A stretch of DNA of 64,000 nt, from contig NZ_JAMQYE010000001.1 in the NCBI RefSeq assembly GCF_023721795.1, positions 2,046,001 to 2,110,000 on the forward strand, written 5' to 3'. Positions within the stretch are counted from its first letter, which is position 1. Every line of letters begins with the position of its first letter. The position numbers and the translations under genes were made by a program. This stretch comes from Zeimonas sediminis. GTDB taxonomy: Bacteria > Pseudomonadota > Gammaproteobacteria > Burkholderiales > Burkholderiaceae_E. The notes under the pieces are model-generated. The model made no database searches. It saw nothing but the letters and a program-made list of their open reading frames with translations, and had not been told where the DNA came from. Positions 53,693-64,000 of the stretch are shown one piece after another.

Positions 53693-54757
53693 TCAGCCGA
53701 GCGCTTCGGCGACCGCGCGGCCGACGTCGGCGGTGGTGGCCTTGCCGCCCATGTCGGGCGTGCGCGGGCCGTTCTCGGTCACCTGCTCGATCGCGCGCAG
53801 GATCGCATCGTGGGCGTCCTTGTGCCCGAGGTGCTCGAGCATCATCGCACCGCACCAGATCTGCCCGATCGGGTTGGCGACGCCCTTGCCTGCGATGTCC
53901 GGCGCCGAACCGTGCACCGGCTCGAACAAGGACGGGAACTTGCGCTCGGGGTTGATGTTGGCCGACGGCGCGATGCCGATCGTGCCGGTGCAGGCCGGGC
54001 CCAGGTCGGACAGGATGTCGCCGAACAGGTTGCTCGCGACGACCACGTCGAACCAGTGCGGGTTGCGCACGAAGTGCGCGGTCAGGATGTCGATGTGGAA
54101 CTTGTCGACCTTCACGTCGGGATAGCTCGCCTGCATCTCGGCGACCCGCTCGTCCCAGTAGGGCATCGAGATGAAGATGCCGTTCGACTTGGTGGCCGAG
54201 GTCAGGTGCTTCTTCGGCCGCTTGCGGGCCAGCTCGAAGGCGTAGCGCAGCACGCGGTCGACGCCGGTACGGGTGAAGATCGACTCCTGGATCACGATCT
54301 CGCGGTCGGTGCCGGGGAACATCTTGCCGCCGATCGACGAGTACTCGCCCTCGGTGTTCTCGCGCACCACGTAGAAGTCGATGTCGCCGGGCTTGCGGTT
54401 TGCCAGCGGGCTGGGCACGCCGGGCATCAACCGCACCGGGCGCAGGTTGATGTACTGGTCGAACTCGCGGCGGAACAGCAGCAGCGAACCCCACAGCGAG
54501 ATGTGGTCGGGCACCGTGGCCGGCCAGCCGACCGCGCCGTAGAAGATCGCATCGTGGCCGCCGATCTGGTCCTTCCAGTTCGACGGCATCATTTCGCCGT
54601 GCTTCGCATACCAGTCGCAGCTCGCGAAGTCGAAGTGGTCGTAACGAAGGTCGATGCCGAACTTGCGCGCCGCCGCGTCGAGCACGCGCAGGCCTTCGGG
54701 CACCACCTCCTTGCCGATGCCGTCGCCCGGGATCACCGCGATCCGGTGTGTGGTCAT
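53693..54757 (-). CDS. tartrate dehydrogenase/D-malate dehydrogenase (isopropylmalate dehydrogenase family)
   Basis: 354 residues of the beta-decarboxylating dehydrogenase family: RIAVIPGDGIGKEVVPEG, YVVRENTEGEYSS, KKHLTSATKSNG, SNLFGDILSDLG and EPVHGSAPDIAGKG. The details match TtuC/DmlA-type enzymes, which oxidise tartrate or D-malate. Start ATG 54757 begins the conserved N-terminus. It is the first gene of the leftward unit, with a Bug protein and glycerate kinase behind it, consistent with tartrate to glycerate to glycolysis. Confidence 0.9.
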   Translation of the reverse strand: MTTHRIAVIPGDGIGKEVVPEGLRVLDAAARKFGIDLRYDHFDFASCDWYAKHGEMMPSNWKDQIGGHDAIFYGAVGWPATVPDHISLWGSLLLFRREFDQYINLRPVRLMPGVPSPLANRKPGDIDFYVVRENTEGEYSSIGGKMFPGTDREIVIQESIFTRTGVDRVLRYAFELARKRPKKHLTSATKSNGIFISMPYWDERVAEMQASYPDVKVDKFHIDILTAHFVRNPHWFDVVVASNLFGDILSDLGPACTGTIGIAPSANINPERKFPSLFEPVHGSAPDIAGKGVANPIGQIWCGAMMLEHLGHKDAHDAILRAIEQVTENGPRTPDMGGKATTADVGRAVAEALG

Positions 54758-54874: not shown

Positions 54875-55342
54875 ATGAACGCGATCCGAATCGGCGGCCT
54901 TGCCGCGCTGGGCCTCAGCCTGCTGCTGGCGGGCTGCGTCACGCCGGCAACCACCGCCGTCTACTACGAAGAGGGGCATCCGGCGGCCGGCCCGGTCTAC
55001 GTGGAGCCCTACCCGCTGGCGCCGGCATGGGTCGATCCCTACTACGTGCCCCGCCATCCGCCGCCGGTTTACCTGCCACCGCCGGCCTACCTGCCGCCTC
55101 CGGTCATCGTCACCCCGCCCCCGGTCTACGTCGCGCCGCCGGTGTACACGCGCCCGCCGTCGTACCGGCCGCCGCCCAACCACCGGCCGCCTCCGGGCCT
55201 CCGGCCACCCCCGAACGGTCGCCCGCCGCCCGTGGCGCAGCCACCGAGTCACCGGCCGCCGCCAGGCCGGCCCGCGCCAAGGCCGCGGGGGCCGATGCCT
55301 TGGGAGACGGGGCCGGAAACGGGGGAGCGGTCGGGGTCCTGA
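54875..55342 (+). CDS. proline-rich lipoprotein, hypothetical
   Basis: 155 residues. A lipoprotein signal with lipobox LLAGC (Cys about residue 21), then a Tyr/Pro/Val-rich body with repeated PPPVY and RPPP units to residue ~145. It is probably an outer-membrane or periplasmic surface lipoprotein. No domain is recognised; proline-rich lipoproteins of this kind are frequent in Burkholderiales. It precedes the NRPS genes by 148 bp on the same strand, which is not enough to link it functionally. The 55343-55490 gap shows no feature except GGGGGAGGG before the next start. Confidence 0.75.
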   Translation: MNAIRIGGLAALGLSLLLAGCVTPATTAVYYEEGHPAAGPVYVEPYPLAPAWVDPYYVPRHPPPVYLPPPAYLPPPVIVTPPPVYVAPPVYTRPPSYRPPPNHRPPPGLRPPPNGRPPPVAQPPSHRPPPGRPAPRPRGPMPWETGPETGERSGS

Positions 55343-55490
55343 TCGGGCCGCAAGGCCGCGGCGCACCCCCATCCGCCATCTGCGAGAAATCGTTCACGAC
55401 CCGACCGGCCCGGCTGCAGGCATAGTGCATGAGCCGGGAGGAGCGGAGTCGGCCGCTCGTCCCTTCGATTCTCCGGGGGAGGGCAGAGCC

Positions 55491-57389
55491 GTGTCGACCA
55501 TCGCGCAACTTCTGAAGAGCCGGCGCCTCGAGGCGGGCGGGTCTCCCGTGCTGCTTGCCAGCGGCAGGCAACCAGGCTCGTACGCCGACCTGTCGACGCA
55601 GGCGGAACAGTGCGCGGACGTCTTCCGTGCCGCGGGGCTCGGTCGCGGCTCCCGGATCGCCGTGTCCCTGCCGAACGGCCCGGAGGCCGCATCGGCCGTC
55701 CTCGCGATCGCTTCCTGCGCGACCTGCGTTCCACTGAATCCCGACTACCGGGGCGACGAGTTCCGCTTCTACCTCGAGGACTCTCGCGCCGACGCGATCG
55801 TGATCCGGCGCGACGAGCGCGGGCCGGTTCGCGATGCCGCTGCCGACCTGGGCCTCGCGGTGTTCGAGCTCGACACGGATCCAGGCGCACCAGCCGGGCG
55901 CTTCGACCTGACCGCCGCGGCCATCGGCGCCCACGCGCCTCGTCGAACGGACGAGTCGGCCTCCGACCTCTCCTCGCCCGCGGCAGACGATGTGGCGCTG
56001 ATCCTGCACACGTCGGGCACCACCGCCCGACCGAAGATCGTGCCGTTGTCGCAGGCAAATCTCGTCGCGTCGGCTCACAGCATCGCGGCCCACCTCGCGC
56101 TGTCGCCGCGCGATCGGGGCCTGAACGTGATGCCGCTCTTCCACATCCACGGCCTCGTCGGCTCCCTGCTGTCGACGATCGCCTCGGGAGGGAGCCTCGC
56201 CTGCATGCCCGGCTTCGAGGCCGAACAGTTCTTCGACTGGGTCGCGGAGTTCGATCCGAGCTGGTACACGGCGGTCCCGACGATTCACCAGGCCATCCTG
56301 GCGGCGGGAGGCGCGTACCGCGCCCGGGCGCCCCTGCACGACTTTCGCTTCGTCCGCTCGTCGTCGGCGGCGCTTCCACCCTCGACCCTCGCGGGGCTGG
56401 AGTCTCTCTTCGGCGCGCCGGTCGTCGAAGCCTACGGAATGACCGAAGCCTCGCACCAGATGGCGACGAATCCCTTGCCGCCTCGTACGCGGAAGCCCGG
56501 CACCGTCGGCCTGCCCGCAGGCGTCGAGATCGCGATTCTCGACGGTTCCGGAATCGAGCTGGCACAGGGTGAAACCGGCGAGATCGCGATACGCGGTCCG
56601 GGCGTGACCTCGGGCTACGAGAACAACCCCGAGGCGAACGCCAGCGCCTTCACGCGCGGCTGGTTCCGCACCGGCGACCAGGGCTTCTTCGATGCGGACG
56701 GCTATCTGCGCATCACCGGCCGACTGAAGGAGATCGTGAATCGCGGCGGCGAGAAGATCTCGCCGCGGGAGATCGACGAGGCCCTGCTGGAGCACCCCGA
56801 GGTGGCCCAGGCCACCTGTTTCGCGGTGCCGCACGCGTCCCTCGGAGAGGACCTCGCGGCCGCGGTGGTGCCGAAAGCCGGGTGCCGGCCAGACGAAGCG
56901 AGCCTTCGGCGGTTCCTCTTCGGCCGCGTCGCCGACTACAAGGTGCCCAGCCAGATCGTGCTCGTCGACTCGATCCCGAAGGGACCGACCGGCAAGATCC
57001 AGCGCACGAGCCTGCACGAGAAGCTGGGGCCGGCGCTGGCGAGGCCGTTCGAGGCCCCGCGCACCGACACGGAGGCGATCCTGGAGTCCGTCTTCCGCGA
57101 GGTCCTTGCGACGGGCCCCCTCGGCATCCATGCGAACTTCTTCCTGGCCGGGGGTGACTCGCTGCGCGGAATGCAGGTCGTGGGCCGGATACGCGAGCGG
57201 CTGTCGGTCGAGCTGCCCGTCGTGACCCTTTTTCGACACCCGACCGTGGCGGAGCTGGCTTCGGCGATCGACGCGCTGGCGCAGCCGGCTCTCGACCGGG
57301 AGGCCGCACTCATGGCGGAGATCGACTCGATGTCCGACGAGGAGGTTGCGAGAATGCTCGAGGAGATGGAGCGGGGAGACGGTCGGTGA
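55491..57389 (+). CDS. acyl-AMP ligase fused to carrier protein (NRPS loading protein)
   Basis: 632 residues. Residues ~1-520 are an ANL adenylating enzyme: LHTSGTTARPK, MPLFHIHGLVGSLLS (as in oxalate/AAE3-type acyl-CoA synthetases), YGMTEASHQM, RTGDQGFF, RLKEIVNRGGEKISP and the catalytic lysine in PKGPTGKIQR. Residues ~530-610 are a carrier protein with phosphopantetheine serine S557 in GGDSLRG. It should activate a carboxylic acid as acyl-AMP and load it on its own carrier. The start is GTG 55491 behind a GGGGGAGG site. The stop overlaps the NRPS start as GTGA. The acyl substrate is unknown. Confidence 0.85.
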   Translation: MSTIAQLLKSRRLEAGGSPVLLASGRQPGSYADLSTQAEQCADVFRAAGLGRGSRIAVSLPNGPEAASAVLAIASCATCVPLNPDYRGDEFRFYLEDSRADAIVIRRDERGPVRDAAADLGLAVFELDTDPGAPAGRFDLTAAAIGAHAPRRTDESASDLSSPAADDVALILHTSGTTARPKIVPLSQANLVASAHSIAAHLALSPRDRGLNVMPLFHIHGLVGSLLSTIASGGSLACMPGFEAEQFFDWVAEFDPSWYTAVPTIHQAILAAGGAYRARAPLHDFRFVRSSSAALPPSTLAGLESLFGAPVVEAYGMTEASHQMATNPLPPRTRKPGTVGLPAGVEIAILDGSGIELAQGETGEIAIRGPGVTSGYENNPEANASAFTRGWFRTGDQGFFDADGYLRITGRLKEIVNRGGEKISPREIDEALLEHPEVAQATCFAVPHASLGEDLAAAVVPKAGCRPDEASLRRFLFGRVADYKVPSQIVLVDSIPKGPTGKIQRTSLHEKLGPALARPFEAPRTDTEAILESVFREVLATGPLGIHANFFLAGGDSLRGMQVVGRIRERLSVELPVVTLFRHPTVAELASAIDALAQPALDREAALMAEIDSMSDEEVARMLEEMERGDGR

Positions 57390-60300
57390 CCCTCGGCGAA
57401 CGGGATCGACGGGAAGATGGCGAACCCGGCGCCTCGGCGCGCCCAGCCAAGCCCCTGCCGTCTCCTGCCGACGCGAGAAAGCGGCTTCTCGAGCTGAGGC
57501 TGAAGGCCGGGCGCGACGCGCCCGCCGCGCCGCCGAAGACGCGCGACGGTGGCGCGCTCTCCGCGCCCGTCGCTTCCCACGCACAGGAAGCGCTCTGGTT
57601 CATCGAGCGCCTGCTCGGACCGAGCGACCTCTATCACGTGACGAAGGCGGTCCGACTTCGGGGCCGCCTGGACGAGGCCGCCCTCGAACGCAGCCTGTCG
57701 GCGCTGATCGAGAGGCATCCCTGCCTGCGGACCGGCTTCGAGGAGCGCGACGGCAAGCCGGTTCCGTTCGTGAGCGCGCCCTCCCCCGCGAAGCTCGCGA
57801 CCGCGCGGGCCGGCGGCAATACGGCGGAGGAGCGCCGGCTCTCGACCTTGCGCCTGATGGAGGCCGAGGCGATGCGGCCCTTCGACCTCGCCAGGCCGCC
57901 CCTGATCCGGGGCCTCCTGATCAGGGTCGGACCGGAGGACCACGTCTTCCTGCTGGTGGCGCACCACATCGTCACGGACGGCTGGTCGATGGGCATCATC
58001 GCGCGCGAGATCGGGGAGCTGTACGGAGCGTTCTCCGCGGGCGGCGTTCCTGCCCTGCCCCCGCTCGGGGCCGACTTCGCAGGGCACGCAGTGTCCCAGC
58101 GACTTCGCATCGCGTCCGATTCCGGCGCGCGCGACCTCGACTACTGGCGAGCGCAGTTGCAGGGGCTCGAACCGCTCGACCTCCCGACCGACCCGCAGCT
58201 GGCGGATGGCGCTCGCTACGAGGGCCGGACCGAGACCGCAGTCATTCCCGTCGACCTCGCCCAGGCCCTCCGCTCGCTCGCGCAGCGCTCGGGGGCCACC
58301 TTGTTCATGGCGCTGCTCGCCGCCTACCAGGCGCTGCTCATGCGCCTGTCCGGGCAGCACGACTTCGCCGTGGGGGTGCCGGTCGCAGGGCGAGACGGCA
58401 CCGCCCTGGAAGGCGTGGTCGGCTACTTCGTGAACGCGCTCGCCGTCCGGACGGACCTGTCCGGTTCGCCGGGCTTCCTGACCCTGCTGGCGCGGACCCG
58501 CCGGACCGTCCTGGATGCCCTGGAGCACCAGCAGACGCCTTTCGAGCAACTGGTGCACGAGCTCGCCCCGGATCGGGACCCTGACCGCAACCCGCTGTTC
58601 GACGTGATGTTCAACTACACGGAAGGGCTGCGCGGGCGCTTCCTTCTTCCCGGCCTCGAGTGCACGAGCGAGACCGTGCCGCGGATGCCGTCGAAGTTCG
58701 CCATGACCCTGTATGCGGAGGCTCAGGGCGACGGCGTCGAACTGCGCCTCGCGTATCGGGGCGACCGTTTCTCGCAGGCGCGGGCCGCGGCGATGCTCGC
58801 GCAGTACGTCGCCCTGATCGAGCAGGTCGTCGCGCAGCCCGAGGCGCCGGTCGGCGCCCACTCCCTCGTGACGGACCAGACCCGCGCCCTGCTGCCGGAT
58901 CCGGCCGCGGAGATCTCCGCCCCGCCGCAGGTCCCGGTTCCTGCCCGGATCGCGATCCGCGAAGGCGACCGACAGCTCGGCTACCGCGACCTCGTAGCGG
59001 GGGCCCTGGACCTCGCCTCGCTGCTCAGGGCGCGCGGAGTGGCGCGCGGCGACGTCGTCGCGATCCAGATGCCCCGCAGCGCGGCGCTCGTCGAGGCCAT
59101 GCTGGCAGCGCTGATGAGCGGCGCGGCACTCATGGTCGTGGATCCGGCATTGCCGCGCGAGCGGAGATTGGTGATGCTTCGCGAAGCCCGCGCAAGGCTC
59201 GTCTGCGTTTCCGACGCCGCGGGCGCCTGCGCCGAGCCCCCTTACCCCGGGGTCGAGGCGCTGCGGGTCGACGAAGGTCGCGCCGCAGCCGGGAGCGCCC
59301 CCGAACCCTCAGAGGCCGCAGAGGTCGACGGCAACGATCCCGCCTACCTGTTCTTCACCTCGGGAAGCACCGGGCAGCCGAAGGCGATCCTCGGGCGGCA
59401 CAAGAGCCTGAGCCACTTCCTGGACTGGCAGCGGGCGCAGTACCGGATCGGCGCGGACGACCGGGTGTCCCAGCTCATCGGCCTGTCCTTCGACCCGCTG
59501 CTGCGCGACGTCTTCCTTCCGCTGACGAGCGGCGGCACGCTCTGCATACCGGGCGAGGACGACTTCGCGGATCCCATCGGCTGGCTCATGCGCGAGAAGG
59601 TCACGGTGGTCCACTCGACCCCTGCGGTCGTGCAGAGCTGGCTGGCGGCCCGGCCGGCGGACGCGGAACTGCCGGACCTTCGCTGGCTGTTCCTGTCGGG
59701 CGAACCGCTGACCGACTCCCTGGTGCAGCGGTGGCGCCGAGGCCCCGGCCGGCGAACCCGGCTCGTCAACTTCTACGGCCCCACCGAAACGACCATGATC
59801 CGGTGCGCGTACGAGATCCCCGAAGACGTGCAACCCGGCATCCAGCCGGTCGGTCTGCCGCTGCCGCACAGCCAGGCGCTGGTCCTCAATCCCGCCGGAG
59901 GCCTCTGCGGCATCGGCGAGCCGGGCGAGATCGTGTTGCGGACGCCCTTCTCCACGCTCGGCTACCTCAACCTGCCGGACGAGAACGCGCGCCGCTTCCG
60001 CCGGAACCCATTTCGCGACGACGACGCCGACCTCGTCTATTTCACCGGCGATCGCGGGCGCTACAGGCCCGACGGCGTGCTCGAGATCTGCGGCCGGCTC
60101 GACGACCAGGTCAAGATTCGCGGCGTGCGTGTGGAGCCAGGCGAAGTGGCCGCCGTGCTGTCTCGCCACGAAGGGGTCGATGAATGCGTGGTCGTCGCGC
60201 GCCCCGATCCCCGTGGAGAAACGGCCCTGGCAGCGTACTTCGTGGCGGGCGGGCCGACCGCCCCCGGGGCGTCGGAGCTTCGGGCCTACCTGAAGCGACA

Positions 60301-61531
60301 TCTTTCCGCCGCGCTCGTGCCCGCCTCCTTCGTCCGGCTCGACTCGCTTCCGCTTCTGCCGAACGGGAAGGTCGACCGGCGGGCCTTGCCGGCCCCCGAC
60401 TGGGGCGCGTCGGCGGCAGGCTACGCTGCGCCCCGCTCGGAGATCGAAAGGACGCTGGCGAGCATCTGGGAAGGACTTCTCGGCGTCGAGCGCGTCGGGC
60501 TCGACGACGACTTCTTCGAGCTGGGCGGGCACTCGATGCTGGCAATCCGCGTTCTGGCCGAAGTGGACAGGCGCCTGGGAAGGCAGCTCCGAATGGCTGC
60601 CTTCTTCGAGGCGCCGACGATCCGCCAGTTCGCCGCGCTGCTGGGCAGCGACGCGACTGACGGCAAGGGCTGCGTGGTCACGGTCCAGAAAGGAGACGGC
60701 AGCCGGCCCCTCTTCTTCGTTTCCGGCTGGGGCGCGCAGCTGATCGTGCTCAAGGAGCTCGCCAAGGGACTCGACGCCGGACAGTCGCTGCACGTCCTGG
60801 ACACGGCCGCCTTCGACCCGGACGCGATTCGAGCAGCCGGGCAGGCGCTGACGATCGAATGGGTGGCCGCGCGCATGGTCGAGGACATGCGGCGGGTGCA
60901 GGCGACGGGACCCTACCGGCTCGCAGGCTATTCGATGGGCGGGAAGATCGTGCACGAGATCGCCCAGCAACTCGTCAGGTCCGGCGAGCGTGTCGCGCTT
61001 CTCGCCCTGCTCGACTCGCGGGCTCCGGGATACCCCCGCCGAAGGTCGGCGCCGGTGCGGGTGTTCCTGCACCTGCGCAAGGCGCTGGCGATGCCGCCGA
61101 GCGAGATGGCCCGATATATCGCCGGCCGGGCGCGCTGGATGGTCCGGCACATGATGCCGCGCGAGCGCGCCCTGTTCGAGGACGGCGAGGTCGAGCACAC
61201 GGCGTTGACGCTGGCCATGGAGCGCGCAGCGCGGGCGATGCACGCCGCCTGGAGTGTCTACCAGCCTCGCTTCTACCCCGGCCGGCTGACGATGATCAGG
61301 GCGGAGGGCACGCCGGAGAAGGTGGGCGAGATCCACGACGACCCGACCCTGGGATGGGCGGCGCTCAGCGGCGAAGGCGTCGAGCTCCGGAGCATGCAGT
61401 GCGCGCACAACCACATGCTGCTTGCGCCGCACGCGGAGGACCTCGCGAAGATCCTGGCGCAGCTCATTGCCGACGAAGGACCGGCCTCCGCCGCCCGGCG
61501 GCAGCGCGAGAGCGCCGACTGCCATGCCTGA
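57386..61531 (+). CDS. non-ribosomal peptide synthetase module, C-A-PCP-TE
   Basis: 1381 residues. A ~60-residue leader is followed by a condensation domain with intact HHIVTDG (193-199), an adenylation domain (about 500-1000: FFTSGSTGQPKA at 656-667, NFYGPTETT, YFTGDRGRY, GRLDDQVKIRGVRVEPGEV, PNGKVDRR), a carrier domain with S1050 in LGGHSML, and a type I thioesterase with S1183 in GYSMGG, Asp in LLDSRAPG and His in AHNHML. The module would join the upstream acyl unit to one amino or related acid and release it. By-eye pocket residues are D-P-R-H-F-S-F-M-I-K, unlike common bacterial codes. The start is GTG 57386, coupled to the loading protein. Confidence 0.9.
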   Translation: MTLGERDRREDGEPGASARPAKPLPSPADARKRLLELRLKAGRDAPAAPPKTRDGGALSAPVASHAQEALWFIERLLGPSDLYHVTKAVRLRGRLDEAALERSLSALIERHPCLRTGFEERDGKPVPFVSAPSPAKLATARAGGNTAEERRLSTLRLMEAEAMRPFDLARPPLIRGLLIRVGPEDHVFLLVAHHIVTDGWSMGIIAREIGELYGAFSAGGVPALPPLGADFAGHAVSQRLRIASDSGARDLDYWRAQLQGLEPLDLPTDPQLADGARYEGRTETAVIPVDLAQALRSLAQRSGATLFMALLAAYQALLMRLSGQHDFAVGVPVAGRDGTALEGVVGYFVNALAVRTDLSGSPGFLTLLARTRRTVLDALEHQQTPFEQLVHELAPDRDPDRNPLFDVMFNYTEGLRGRFLLPGLECTSETVPRMPSKFAMTLYAEAQGDGVELRLAYRGDRFSQARAAAMLAQYVALIEQVVAQPEAPVGAHSLVTDQTRALLPDPAAEISAPPQVPVPARIAIREGDRQLGYRDLVAGALDLASLLRARGVARGDVVAIQMPRSAALVEAMLAALMSGAALMVVDPALPRERRLVMLREARARLVCVSDAAGACAEPPYPGVEALRVDEGRAAAGSAPEPSEAAEVDGNDPAYLFFTSGSTGQPKAILGRHKSLSHFLDWQRAQYRIGADDRVSQLIGLSFDPLLRDVFLPLTSGGTLCIPGEDDFADPIGWLMREKVTVVHSTPAVVQSWLAARPADAELPDLRWLFLSGEPLTDSLVQRWRRGPGRRTRLVNFYGPTETTMIRCAYEIPEDVQPGIQPVGLPLPHSQALVLNPAGGLCGIGEPGEIVLRTPFSTLGYLNLPDENARRFRRNPFRDDDADLVYFTGDRGRYRPDGVLEICGRLDDQVKIRGVRVEPGEVAAVLSRHEGVDECVVVARPDPRGETALAAYFVAGGPTAPGASELRAYLKRHLSAALVPASFVRLDSLPLLPNGKVDRRALPAPDWGASAAGYAAPRSEIERTLASIWEGLLGVERVGLDDDFFELGGHSMLAIRVLAEVDRRLGRQLRMAAFFEAPTIRQFAALLGSDATDGKGCVVTVQKGDGSRPLFFVSGWGAQLIVLKELAKGLDAGQSLHVLDTAAFDPDAIRAAGQALTIEWVAARMVEDMRRVQATGPYRLAGYSMGGKIVHEIAQQLVRSGERVALLALLDSRAPGYPRRRSAPVRVFLHLRKALAMPPSEMARYIAGRARWMVRHMMPRERALFEDGEVEHTALTLAMERAARAMHAAWSVYQPRFYPGRLTMIRAEGTPEKVGEIHDDPTLGWAALSGEGVELRSMQCAHNHMLLAPHAEDLAKILAQLIADEGPASAARRQRESADCHA

Positions 61532-62228
61532 GGTCTGGAAGGTGGACGTCGAGGCGGAACGCCACCGGCTCGAGCGATACGGCGCCTTGCTGGCTCCTGC
61601 CGAAGCCGAACGCGCGTCACGCTTCCGACGGAGCGACGATCGCCTTCGCTTCCTGGTCGCGCGCGGAACCCTTCGCGAGATCCTGGCGGATCGACTCGGT
61701 TGCGCGCCGGATGCGATCGAGTTCGATACCGGCCCGAACGGCAAGCCCGCCCTGTCCAGCCGCACCGTCGGTGGGCCGCAATTCAACTCCAGCCACTCCG
61801 GCAGGTGGGTGCTGCACGCGTTCGACGACCTGCCGGTCGGCGTGGACATCGAGGAAATCAGGCCCGAGATGGCGATCCTGGAGGACTACGCCCGGGCGCT
61901 GTCGCCCGAGGAGCGGCGCCTGGTTTCCAGGGCCGCACCCGCCGACCGCTCCGCAGCACTGGCTCGTGTCTGGGTCCGCAAGGAGGCGTACGTCAAGGCC
62001 CTGGGAGAGGGATTGAGCGGCTCGTTGCCTGACATCGCCATCGACGAGGCCCCGGACGGAACGCCGACTCTCGCGCGCTCCGGGAACCGCCAGGTCGATC
62101 CCCGGGCGTGGAGCCTTGTCGACCTGGACGTCGACCCCGCGTACAGGGCCTGCCTCGCGCACGTCCGCCACCGGGGACCGACAGTGCTGCGAGAATACGG
62201 TTCGACCTGCTCGAGGACGCTCGGATGA
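61524..62228 (+). CDS. Sfp-type 4'-phosphopantetheinyl transferase
   Basis: 234 residues with the Sfp motifs GVDIEEIRP (Mg ligands) and WVRKEAYVKALGEGL, and the FNSSHSGRW segment that contacts CoA. It installs the phosphopantetheine arm on carrier proteins, here surely those of the two preceding genes. ATG 61524 overlaps the NRPS stop by 8 nt, and its stop overlaps the following transglycosylase by 4 nt. Confidence 0.93.
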   Translation: MPEVWKVDVEAERHRLERYGALLAPAEAERASRFRRSDDRLRFLVARGTLREILADRLGCAPDAIEFDTGPNGKPALSSRTVGGPQFNSSHSGRWVLHAFDDLPVGVDIEEIRPEMAILEDYARALSPEERRLVSRAAPADRSAALARVWVRKEAYVKALGEGLSGSLPDIAIDEAPDGTPTLARSGNRQVDPRAWSLVDLDVDPAYRACLAHVRHRGPTVLREYGSTCSRTLG

Positions 62229-63238
62229 GAGACCGGCCGGCATCCCGGAGCGCCGGCGTGCGCCGGGGCGCGAGCCTGCTCATGTGCGCGACGGCGGCTG
62301 CGCTGTGCTGGCCGGGCCACGTGCGCGGGGTCGAGGCCGTTGCCGCGCCCCCGCCCGCAGCCGTGCCCTCCGGGCAGGCGCGCAAGCCCGACGCCCGGGA
62401 GTTCTTCGAGCGCGGCCAGCTGATCGAGCGGACCGAGCACGGTGACGGGGCGATCGCGCGCGCCTACGTCCTCTACTGCGAAGCCGCCCGCCTGGGCAGC
62501 CCCGACGCGCTGATGCGCCTGGGCTGGATCCATGCCGACGGGCAGGGCCGCCCCCGCGACGAGGGCATCGCGAGCACGCTCTTCCGTCGCGCGGCCGGGT
62601 TCTCGGGCCGCCACGACCGCCTGCCCGAGTGCCTGCGCGAACCCTGGCAGCCCCTGGTCATGCCGCCGATCGACACGACGGCGCCCCCTCCCGTCAGGGC
62701 GGCAGCGCCGCCCGCCATTCCGAGGCCTGCCGAGTTCGAGCCGGCGGTCCTGTCGCCCGGTCGCCAGAAACTCGTGCGGACGGTGCTGCGGATGGCCCTC
62801 GACTACAAGGTCGACCCGCGCCTCGTCTTCGCGGTGATGCAGACCGAGTCGAACTTCGACGCGAACGCCGTGTCCCCGAAGAACGCGCAGGGCCTGATGC
62901 AGCTGATCCCCGAGACGGCCGAGCGATTCGCGGTGCGGGACGTCTTCGACCCGATCGACAACCTGCGCGGCGGAATCGGTTACCTGCGCTGGCTGCTCGC
63001 CTACTACCGGGGCGACGTGATCCTGACGCTCGCCGCCTACAACGCCGGCGAGGGCGCGGTCGACCGGCACCGGGGCGTGCCGCCGTTTCCGGAAACGCTC
63101 GCCTATGTCCAGCGGATCCGCGCGCTCTATCCGCACGACCGGCATTTCTTCGATCCCCGGGTCGCCGATCCGCCGGTCTGGCTGGGCGCCGCGGCCCCGG
63201 ACCGTCGCGATCGGCCGCCGCTCGCCTCGCGCCGCTGA
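62225..63238 (+). CDS. Sel1-repeat plus SLT lytic transglycosylase
   Basis: 337 residues: signal peptide (about 1-36), Sel1/TPR-like repeats (about 60-120; EAARLGSPDALMRLGWIHADG), a proline linker, then an SLT domain (about 190-310) with catalytic E208 in QTESNFDANAVSPKNAQGLM and AAYNAGEGAV. It cleaves peptidoglycan glycan strands in the periplasm. It is tied to the phosphopantetheinyl transferase by an ATGA overlap, so it is co-expressed with the NRPS genes; whether it takes part in the same process is open. Confidence 0.88.
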   Translation: MRDRPASRSAGVRRGASLLMCATAAALCWPGHVRGVEAVAAPPPAAVPSGQARKPDAREFFERGQLIERTEHGDGAIARAYVLYCEAARLGSPDALMRLGWIHADGQGRPRDEGIASTLFRRAAGFSGRHDRLPECLREPWQPLVMPPIDTTAPPPVRAAAPPAIPRPAEFEPAVLSPGRQKLVRTVLRMALDYKVDPRLVFAVMQTESNFDANAVSPKNAQGLMQLIPETAERFAVRDVFDPIDNLRGGIGYLRWLLAYYRGDVILTLAAYNAGEGAVDRHRGVPPFPETLAYVQRIRALYPHDRHFFDPRVADPPVWLGAAAPDRRDRPPLASRR

Positions 63239-63287
63239 ACGGGGCGGCTCCCCGCCGGCGCCCGCCCGGATCGCGCTTCGTCCCCTC

Positions 63288-64000
63288 TCAGTCGCGCCCG
63301 CGCGAGGACCCGCCGGCGTCCGCTTCCTGTTCCTCCCGCTGCTGCAGCGCCCACAGCCGCGCGTACTCGCCGCCCGCTCGCAGCAACTCGCGGTGGGTGC
63401 CGCGCTCGACGATCCGGCCGCCCGCCATCACCAGGATCTGCGCCGCGTCGGCGACGGTCGACAACCGGTGCGCGACGACCAGCGTGGTCCGGTGCGCCGC
63501 GGCGCTGCGCAGCGCCCCCTGTATCGCCTGCTCGTTCCGGCTGTCGAGCGCCGAGGTCGCCTCGTCGAGCACCAGGATCGGCGGATCCTTGAGCAGCGCC
63601 CGCGCGATCGCGACCCGCTGCTTCTCGCCGCCCGACAGCTTCAGCCCCCGCTCGCCCACCACCGTGTCGTAGCCCTTCGGCAGCGTCTCGACGAAATCGT
63701 GCAGCCTGGCGGCGCGCGCGGCCGCGACGATCTCCGCGTCGCCCGCGTCGGGCCGGCCGTAGCCGATGTTGTAGCGGATCGTGTCGTTGAACAGCACCGT
63801 GTCCTGCGGCACGATCCCGATCGCCGCGCGCAGGCTGGCCTGGGTCACCGACCGGATGTCCTGGCCGTCGATCGCGACCCGCCCGTCGCTCACGTCGTAG
63901 AAGCGGAACAGCAGCCGCGCGAGCGTCGACTTGCCCGCCCCGCTGGCGCCGACCACCGCGGTGGTCGTGCCCGGCGCCATCGCGAAGTCGACCTCGTGCA
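63288..64000 (-). CDS. ABC exporter ATPase domain, C-terminal part (runs off the window)
   Basis: The last ~237 codons of a longer gene: the frame continues past position 64000, so the ATG at 63980 is internal. Walker [11 protein letters not shown]-loop region [14 protein letters not shown], signature KLSGGEKQR, Walker [13 protein letters not shown] and H-loop VAHRLSTV are all present. The pattern resembles ATM1/MsbA-type half-transporters (membrane domain would be upstream, outside). It is convergent with the transglycosylase gene, so it is not part of that operon. Confidence 0.9.

Follow-up and report, generated by a model that had tools for sequence, protein, structure and literature searches.

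The operon and its single module

In the genome of Zeimonas sediminis, we analysed a stretch of 64,000 nucleotides (contig NZ_JAMQYE010000001.1, positions 2,046,001 to 2,110,000 of the forward strand; hereafter the window), and in it an operon encoding an acyl ligase (AL) fused to a peptidyl carrier protein (PCP) domain, a nonribosomal peptide synthetase (NRPS) with one condensation (C), adenylation (A), PCP and thioesterase (TE) domain each, and a 4'-phosphopantetheinyl transferase (PPTase). Judged from its sequence, the operon is intact and belongs, with its one module, to a variable NRPS island; its starter ligase is unusual. The overlapping genes are as follows (lengths in amino acids, aa):

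55491..57389, + strand: AMP-ligase of the AAE3/Pcs60 (oxalate-CoA ligase) family with a C-terminal carrier domain (AL-PCP), 632 aa; from Pfam and the ligase tree
57386..61531, + strand: NRPS of one module, C-A-PCP-TE, 1381 aa; from Pfam, motif check and trees
61524..62228, + strand: PPTase, Sfp/HetI-like, 234 aa; from Pfam and NCBIfam
62225..63238, + strand: lytic transglycosylase with SLT domain (Pfam, 1.2e-28), which closes the string of overlapping genes

The ligase gene starts with GTG at 55491 and is preceded by GGGGGAGGG, which resembles a ribosome-binding site. Four nucleotides are common to the ligase and NRPS genes (57386-57389), eight to the NRPS and PPTase genes (61524-61531) and four to the PPTase and transglycosylase genes (62225-62228). 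The original prediction of three genes overlapping by 4-8 nucleotides is thus borne out by the open reading frames; the transglycosylase, a fourth overlapping gene, had been missed.

Pfam domains agreed with the proposed AL-carrier protein, single C-A-PCP-TE module and Sfp-type PPTase. The ligase protein contained AMP-binding (2.7e-74), AMP-binding_C and PP-binding, and the NRPS contained Condensation (7.6e-92), AMP-binding (1.5e-70), AMP-binding_C, PP-binding and Thioesterase (4.1e-16). In the PPTase, ACPS (1e-18) and AASDHPPT_N were detected, and its best NCBIfam model was HetI, at 114 bits below the cut-off of 370. At such E-values, chance matches are excluded. The motifs claimed to be intact (HHxxxDG, both carrier serines, TE Ser/Asp/His) could all be located: HHIVTDG in the C domain, S557 in the ligase protein, S1050 in the NRPS, and the TE triad S1183/D1210/H1343, with D1210 assigned by position only. 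D703 and K995 of the A domain were present as well. The NRPS therefore has all parts of a minimal module in the proper order, that is, a C domain with HHxxxDG, an A domain, a carrier Ser and TE Ser/Asp/His. In the 3.86-Mb host genome, the carrier-domain family occurred at four places, two of them in the operon and two as lone matches elsewhere.

An NRPS island of variable length

The operon lies between two conserved flanking genes, with a third gene at its left border:

53693..54757, - strand: isocitrate/isopropylmalate dehydrogenase family gene (IsoDH), conserved left flank
54875..55342, + strand: putative proline-rich lipoprotein without Pfam match, left border of the island, present in the empty site of genome G007 too
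63288..63998, - strand: 3' part of an ABC transporter gene (Pfam) that extends beyond the window, conserved right flank

This site was followed through 18 genomes of the genus (G000 being the window genome), while the NRPS search covered 61 genomes overall. NRPS matches below 1e-100 were present in seven of the 18 genus genomes (G000, G003, G004, G005, G008, G011 and G014). In five, the island occupied the span between IsoDH and the ABC gene, which measured 8.7 kb in G000, 11.2 kb in G004, 12.8 kb in G008, 17.2 kb in G005 and 53 kb in G011. Eight genomes (G001, G002, G007, G009, G010, G013, G016 and G017) had the flanks 0.8-1.3 kb apart, an interval too short for an NRPS at this site. In G003 and G014 the NRPS adjoined the ABC gene, and the IsoDH flank was on another contig or was not found; in G006, G012 and G015 one flank was not found, and the site could not be assessed. 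With its AL, NRPS and PPTase genes between IsoDH and the ABC gene, the window operon belongs to this genus island. In the close relative G007, whose site is empty, the gene for the proline-rich lipoprotein stands between IsoDH and the ABC gene. DNA homology between the window and G007 ends at 55140, within the lipoprotein gene, and restarts at 63334, from which an accessory unit of approximately 55343-63286 can be inferred. The G011 interval includes some 40 kb adjoining IsoDH (L219 and L220; G011:C6:30000-69999) in which the window domains had no match.

The layout of the island varied considerably. The window has AL-PCP / C-A-PCP-TE / PPTase, while G008, at the same site and in the same gene order, has AL-PCP / C-A-PCP-PCP-C-A-PCP-TE / PPTase, i.e. 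two modules. The order in G011 is NRPS (two modules, with TE), second AL-PCP, transglycosylase, main AL-PCP, PPTase; in G005, an NRPS of four modules (4649 aa, including a TE) is accompanied by a PPTase, with no adjacent AL-PCP. At least two NRPS genes were found in G014, whose contigs are broken, and only fragments in G003. In the G004 island (L103, G004:C1:2695000-2714999), the NRPS and the main ligase are split across several frames, representing either sequencing error or decay. In G022, from another genus, an NRPS with three or more modules comes after an AL-PCP. Within the genus, identity to the window domains was 65-69% for the main AL (65 and 75% for the split pieces of G004), 50-57% for the PPTase, 62-81% for the terminal PCP and 62-67% for the TE; G004 was lower in the last two (46% and 42%). 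Across G004 and G022 the values were 46-51% (PCP) and 42% (TE). The relatives in G003, G004, G005, G008, G011 and G014 thus resemble the window operon in chromosomal site and in their related AL, PCP-TE and, where present, PPTase, but they, like G022, have two or more modules where these can be counted. Among these variable islands of one to four modules, the window operon is the shortest observed. As for the self-contained assembly line originally proposed, ligase, module and PPTase are indeed complete, but the line is not isolated, being the one-module form of a genus island with a fixed site.

The single module itself is a mosaic. The window NRPS was cut into 44 overlapping pieces of 90 residues, which were compared with the G005 NRPS. 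Module 2 of G005 was the best match for 33 of the 44 pieces (starts 1-961) and the terminal module for 11 (starts 991-1291); pieces starting at 631 to 871 were 68-84% identical to module 2. The junction lies near residue 990 (about 60350-60380), close to the end of the A domain. Domain trees were calculated without L105 (a near-copy of L104), overlapping L096 domains and any domain piece covering less than 55% of the profile; the A tree used 25 of 51 rows and the PCP tree 37 of 68. In the C tree, the window domain was found in a clade with C2 of G005 and C1/C2 of G022 (support 100/99; its pairing with G005 C2 had 94/55), whereas the first C domains of G008, G011, G004, G014 and G003 formed a separate group (99/97). 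C-domain subtypes, including starter C domains, are treated in Rausch et al. 2007 (PMC1894796). The window A domain was sister to A2 of G005 (100/99), with A1/A2 of G022 and a Burkholderiales metagenome-assembled genome (MAG) nearby. The window PCP grouped with terminal PCPs with moderate support (84/83 and 88/74), and its TE fell within the TEs of the genus, a group without resolved branching. Piece matches and trees agree, showing that the module combines an internal-type C-A with a terminal PCP-TE. It may have arisen either by deletion of modules or by replacement of the terminal C-A; the comparisons fit both courses of events.

The island is patchily distributed. In flank trees, the window genome grouped with NRPS-negative genomes on starred branches (with G007 and G006 by IsoDH, with G007 by the ABC gene). 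NRPS presence/absence required six changes on the IsoDH tree and five on the ABC tree, and was not more clustered than random (as low a number arose in 500 of 500 shuffles on the IsoDH tree and in 235 of 500 on the ABC tree). Both transfer into the site and repeated loss are possible. The third-codon-position G+C content was 0.869 in the AL, 0.883 in the NRPS and 0.826 in the PPTase gene, against 0.952 +/- 0.016 in 35 other window genes. We rejected this as proof of recent transfer, as island genes were mostly below their flanks in G004, G008, G011 and G014 too (in G005 only slightly), and the low value may therefore be a property of the island genes themselves.

Beyond the genus, AL-PCP proteins at E <= 1e-175 were found in 5 of 74 genomes of the family and 2 of 16 genera, with at most the best 17 candidates scored per genome; the split gene of G004 was missed at this threshold. 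Across 398 genomes of the phylum, ligase matches at E <= 1e-165 occurred in ten besides the host, with at most the best three candidates scored per genome; all ended by query position 526, none reaching the carrier domain. Plasmid records gave ligase matches in 16 and NRPS matches in 256. Four plasmid matches were inspected, one of them unannotated: no comparable minimal operon was seen beside the two ligase matches with gene tables, and the inspected NRPS match was part of an NRPS gene of greater size. Among named relatives of the window NRPS, a Burkholderiales MAG was the best match. The minimal AL-PCP-C-A-PCP-TE arrangement is not unique to the window, as it also occurs in a Bryobacterales MAG (L018), with a ligase of the same family (54% identity) and the same three residues discussed below. 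Unlike the window operon, L018 is one polypeptide starting at a contig edge, with the A-domain code DIVQIGLVYK and a TE of 31% identity.

Starter ligase, amino acid and predicted product

The best solved relatives of the ligase were oxalate-CoA ligases (6qjz, 398 bits; 5ie0, 395; 8aff, 370; 8atd, 280), followed by gramicidin synthetase (242), malonyl-CoA synthetase (224) and FadD13 (197); the dihydroxybenzoate ligase 1md9 scored 149 bits. Identity by blastp was 42.5% to AAE3 and 42.3% to Pcs60, with the alignment spanning nearly the whole ligase part. In a tree of 30 rows, from which one mis-assigned AL row of G022 had been dropped, a clade of 22 rows was supported at 100/100 and comprised AAE3, Pcs60, nine AL-PCP rows including the window and eleven stand-alone bacterial enzymes. 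The eight outside rows, among which long branches were flagged, were two PvdL-like loading ligases (L021, L086) and six other ANL enzymes. The predicted acyl ligase is present together with its own carrier, but its sequence places it with the oxalate-CoA ligases AAE3 and Pcs60, so a small polar acid is no less likely a substrate than a fatty acid.

Residues H218, S292 and H322 of the ligase are equivalent to H214, S289 and H319 of AAE3, which are presumed oxalate contacts. Of the 22 clade rows, 20 had all three; the second AL-PCPs of G011 and G004 did not. In the eight outside rows, H214 occurred in four, S289 in three and H319 in none; only H319 discriminates, because the other two occur outside the clade as well. 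The plant and yeast AAE3/Pcs60 enzymes (PDB 5ie0, 6qjz and 8aff; about 42% identity) resemble the window ligase in keeping these residues, but they are stand-alone CoA ligases, while the window enzyme has its own carrier and would feed an NRPS. The second AL-PCPs of G011 (L100) and G004 (L103) have diverged (46-47% identity), and their lack of the H319 signature suggests a different acid.

We consider it fairly probable (about 0.6) that the operon encodes a one-module line, the shortest form of the genus island, which joins a small carboxylic acid to one amino acid and releases the product by the TE. The earlier prediction of one acid joined to one amino acid is supported to this extent. According to the proposed mechanism, the PPTase would place phosphopantetheine on both carrier domains, and the ligase would adenylate a small carboxylic acid, suggested by its family, and load it onto its own carrier. 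The C domain would then join the loaded acid to the amino acid chosen by the A domain, and the TE may free the N-acyl amino acid as a free acid, a lactone or an oligomer. A characterised match, which would contradict the earlier view that the gene set resembles no known pathway, was not found in the openly licensed literature.

DPRHFSFMIK is the 10-residue code of the A domain, read by motif anchoring on the gramicidin synthetase pattern; its last Lys comes from the A10 motif. The code is identical in A2 of G005, while the other A domains of the island relatives have different codes; related codes are DPRHFSLMAK and DARHFSLMVK in G022 and DVRHFSLMAK in the Burkholderiales MAG. The Ser code, DVWHFSLVDK, has H278, F299 and S301 in common with it but differs at 236, 239 (Arg for Trp), 322, 330 and 331, so the code is not of the serine type by this comparison. 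An amino acid with a small polar side chain is our guess. The C-A unit of G022 directly behind AL-PCP (code DPRHFSLMAK) falls into the C clade and the A clade that hold the window domains. This indicates that C-A units of the window type occur directly behind such AL-PCPs, and the predicted window product would then correspond to what a longer line makes in its first condensation.

Several observations weigh against the joining of a small acid to one amino acid as outlined above. Product, expression and activity of the operon are predictions, and the ligase substrate is deduced from family membership and three residues with a presumed role. We know of no characterised A domain with a code of the DPRHFSFMIK group, and no printed match to the window code or those of its relatives was found in the openly licensed literature. 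The nearest C-A, that of G005, has no adjacent AL-PCP, so this C-A type works behind another module there. No tailoring gene is present in the overlapping string, and the operon might thus be a dead-end relic. The best NCBIfam model for the ligase was the fatty acid-CoA ligase FadD7 (411 bits, below the cut-off of 650), and a fungal Pcs60 is reported to be important in fatty acid metabolism (PMC8826238). No clear oxalate pathway was seen around the stand-alone ligase relatives inspected, and the host genome had no oxalyl-CoA decarboxylase above the model cut-off (four matches fell below it).

Fatty acid as the starter is the strongest of the alternatives, though we regard it as clearly the less probable one. 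In this case, the acid loaded by the ligase would be a fatty acid of medium or long chain, giving an ordinary lipo-amino acid. Besides the FadD7 model and the fungal Pcs60, this is favoured by the position of an acyl ligase and carrier before a C domain, the classical lipo-initiation arrangement of PvdL in pyoverdine synthesis. The same AL-PCP-C order is found in L021 and L086, loading modules that we assume to be of the PvdL kind. However, their ligases are outside the 100/100 clade and begin multi-module proteins, while the window ligase groups with oxalate-CoA ligases; the fatty acyl-CoA synthetase FadD13 scored 197 bits versus 398. By this grouping, the window ligase is not of the PvdL type. 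When the family placement is weighed against the contrary points, a small acid appears more likely than a fatty acid, with oxalate itself as a minority reading only.

With oxalate as the starter, the ligase would make oxalyl-S-PCP on its own carrier and the module would yield an N-oxalyl amino acid, which the TE would set free; we hold this specific version to be rather doubtful. Grass pea AAE3 converts oxalate to oxalyl-CoA and in vitro also transfers oxalate to an amino acid, as reported in PMC9935904. No N-oxalyl or oxalate starter for any NRPS was found in the openly licensed literature; fusadapamide, which surfaced through the term N-oxalyl, is a fungal diaminopropionate peptide and unrelated (PMC12751119). 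An oxalate-degradation context of the ligase family was not borne out by the stand-alone neighbourhoods or by the host genome.

A stand-alone relative of the ligase (53-54% identity; L186-L189) has a conserved neighbourhood in G004, G005, G008 and G014. In G005, its neighbours are TctABC, ketopantoate reductase-like and FAA hydrolase-like genes, alaS and a CoA-transferase III gene. The best NCBIfam model of the CoA-transferase near this genus paralog was succinate-glutarate CoA-transferase; oxalate models were weaker and all were below cut-off. Further neighbours of stand-alone relatives were picked as longest open reading frames only; six of the ten scanned lacked a Pfam match at E <= 1e-10, and probably not all of them are real genes.

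The operon could also be a decaying remnant, left by deletion in a longer NRPS and no longer productive. The mosaic NRPS, the patchy presence in the genus and the broken frames of the G004 island are consistent with this, but all window reading frames and checked motifs are intact, the gene overlaps are preserved and L018 has a similar minimal architecture. Moreover, the PPTase has been retained although only two lone carrier matches exist elsewhere in the genome. We thus consider decay unlikely.

Least likely of all is an iterative use resembling that of enterobactin synthase, in which the module would act several times and the TE would assemble a cyclic or linear oligomer from two or three acyl-amino acid units. 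The parts list is the same, i.e. an acid ligase (EntE), a carrier (EntB), one C-A-PCP-TE module (EntF) and a dedicated PPTase (EntD); the EntF and MxcG models match the NRPS across C-A-PCP (EntF into the TE), and three code residues are those of the Ser code, as noted above. Yet the window ligase is carrier-fused and of the oxalate-CoA ligase family (149 bits for 1md9 versus 398), the EntF model (PRK10252) reached 384.8 bits against a cut-off of 2400, the code departs from the Ser code at five positions, and no siderophore gene, including uptake genes, was seen among the neighbours scanned, the adjoining ABC transporter being present at empty sites too. Although the line would function like an enterobactin- or PvdL-type start plus one terminal module, it shows neither the EntF-level similarity nor the Ser code of an enterobactin-type synthase.

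If the small-acid reading is true, an enzyme family of oxalate metabolism would have been recruited, fused to a carrier, as a starter of nonribosomal peptides; were oxalate the actual starter, the longer related islands would make N-oxalyl peptides. The genus would also offer a natural series (empty, one, two and four modules) at one address for studying gain, loss and re-joining of NRPS modules. The junction at the A-PCP border could be compared with joints used in NRPS engineering, and the one-module form is small enough for whole reconstitution from three purified proteins.

The lytic transglycosylase

The 4-nucleotide overlap with the PPTase gene made the transglycosylase a candidate biosynthetic gene, which we rejected. 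It was present in 15 of the 18 genus genomes, mostly outside the island and in three different surroundings, and for these reasons it was kept out of the biosynthetic line. The loci compared were 62225-63238, L136-L145, L098, L100 and L151. The first surrounding is a syntenic site in seven NRPS-negative genomes, with polysaccharide-export genes adjoining in G007, the one inspected. The second, in G004, G005 and G008, has type I secretion genes and Ig-like repeat proteins adjoining in G005, again the one inspected. The third is the NRPS island itself, in G000, G003, G011 and G014. When 6.5 kb of the G007 transglycosylase site was compared with the window genome, the matches besides the transglycosylase part were all below 90 bp (best 40 of 941 candidates). 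In a transglycosylase tree of 14 rows, which excluded a G016 fragment and three genomes without match, all seven NRPS-positive genomes fell into one clade (97/97), unlike in the trees of the flanking genes.

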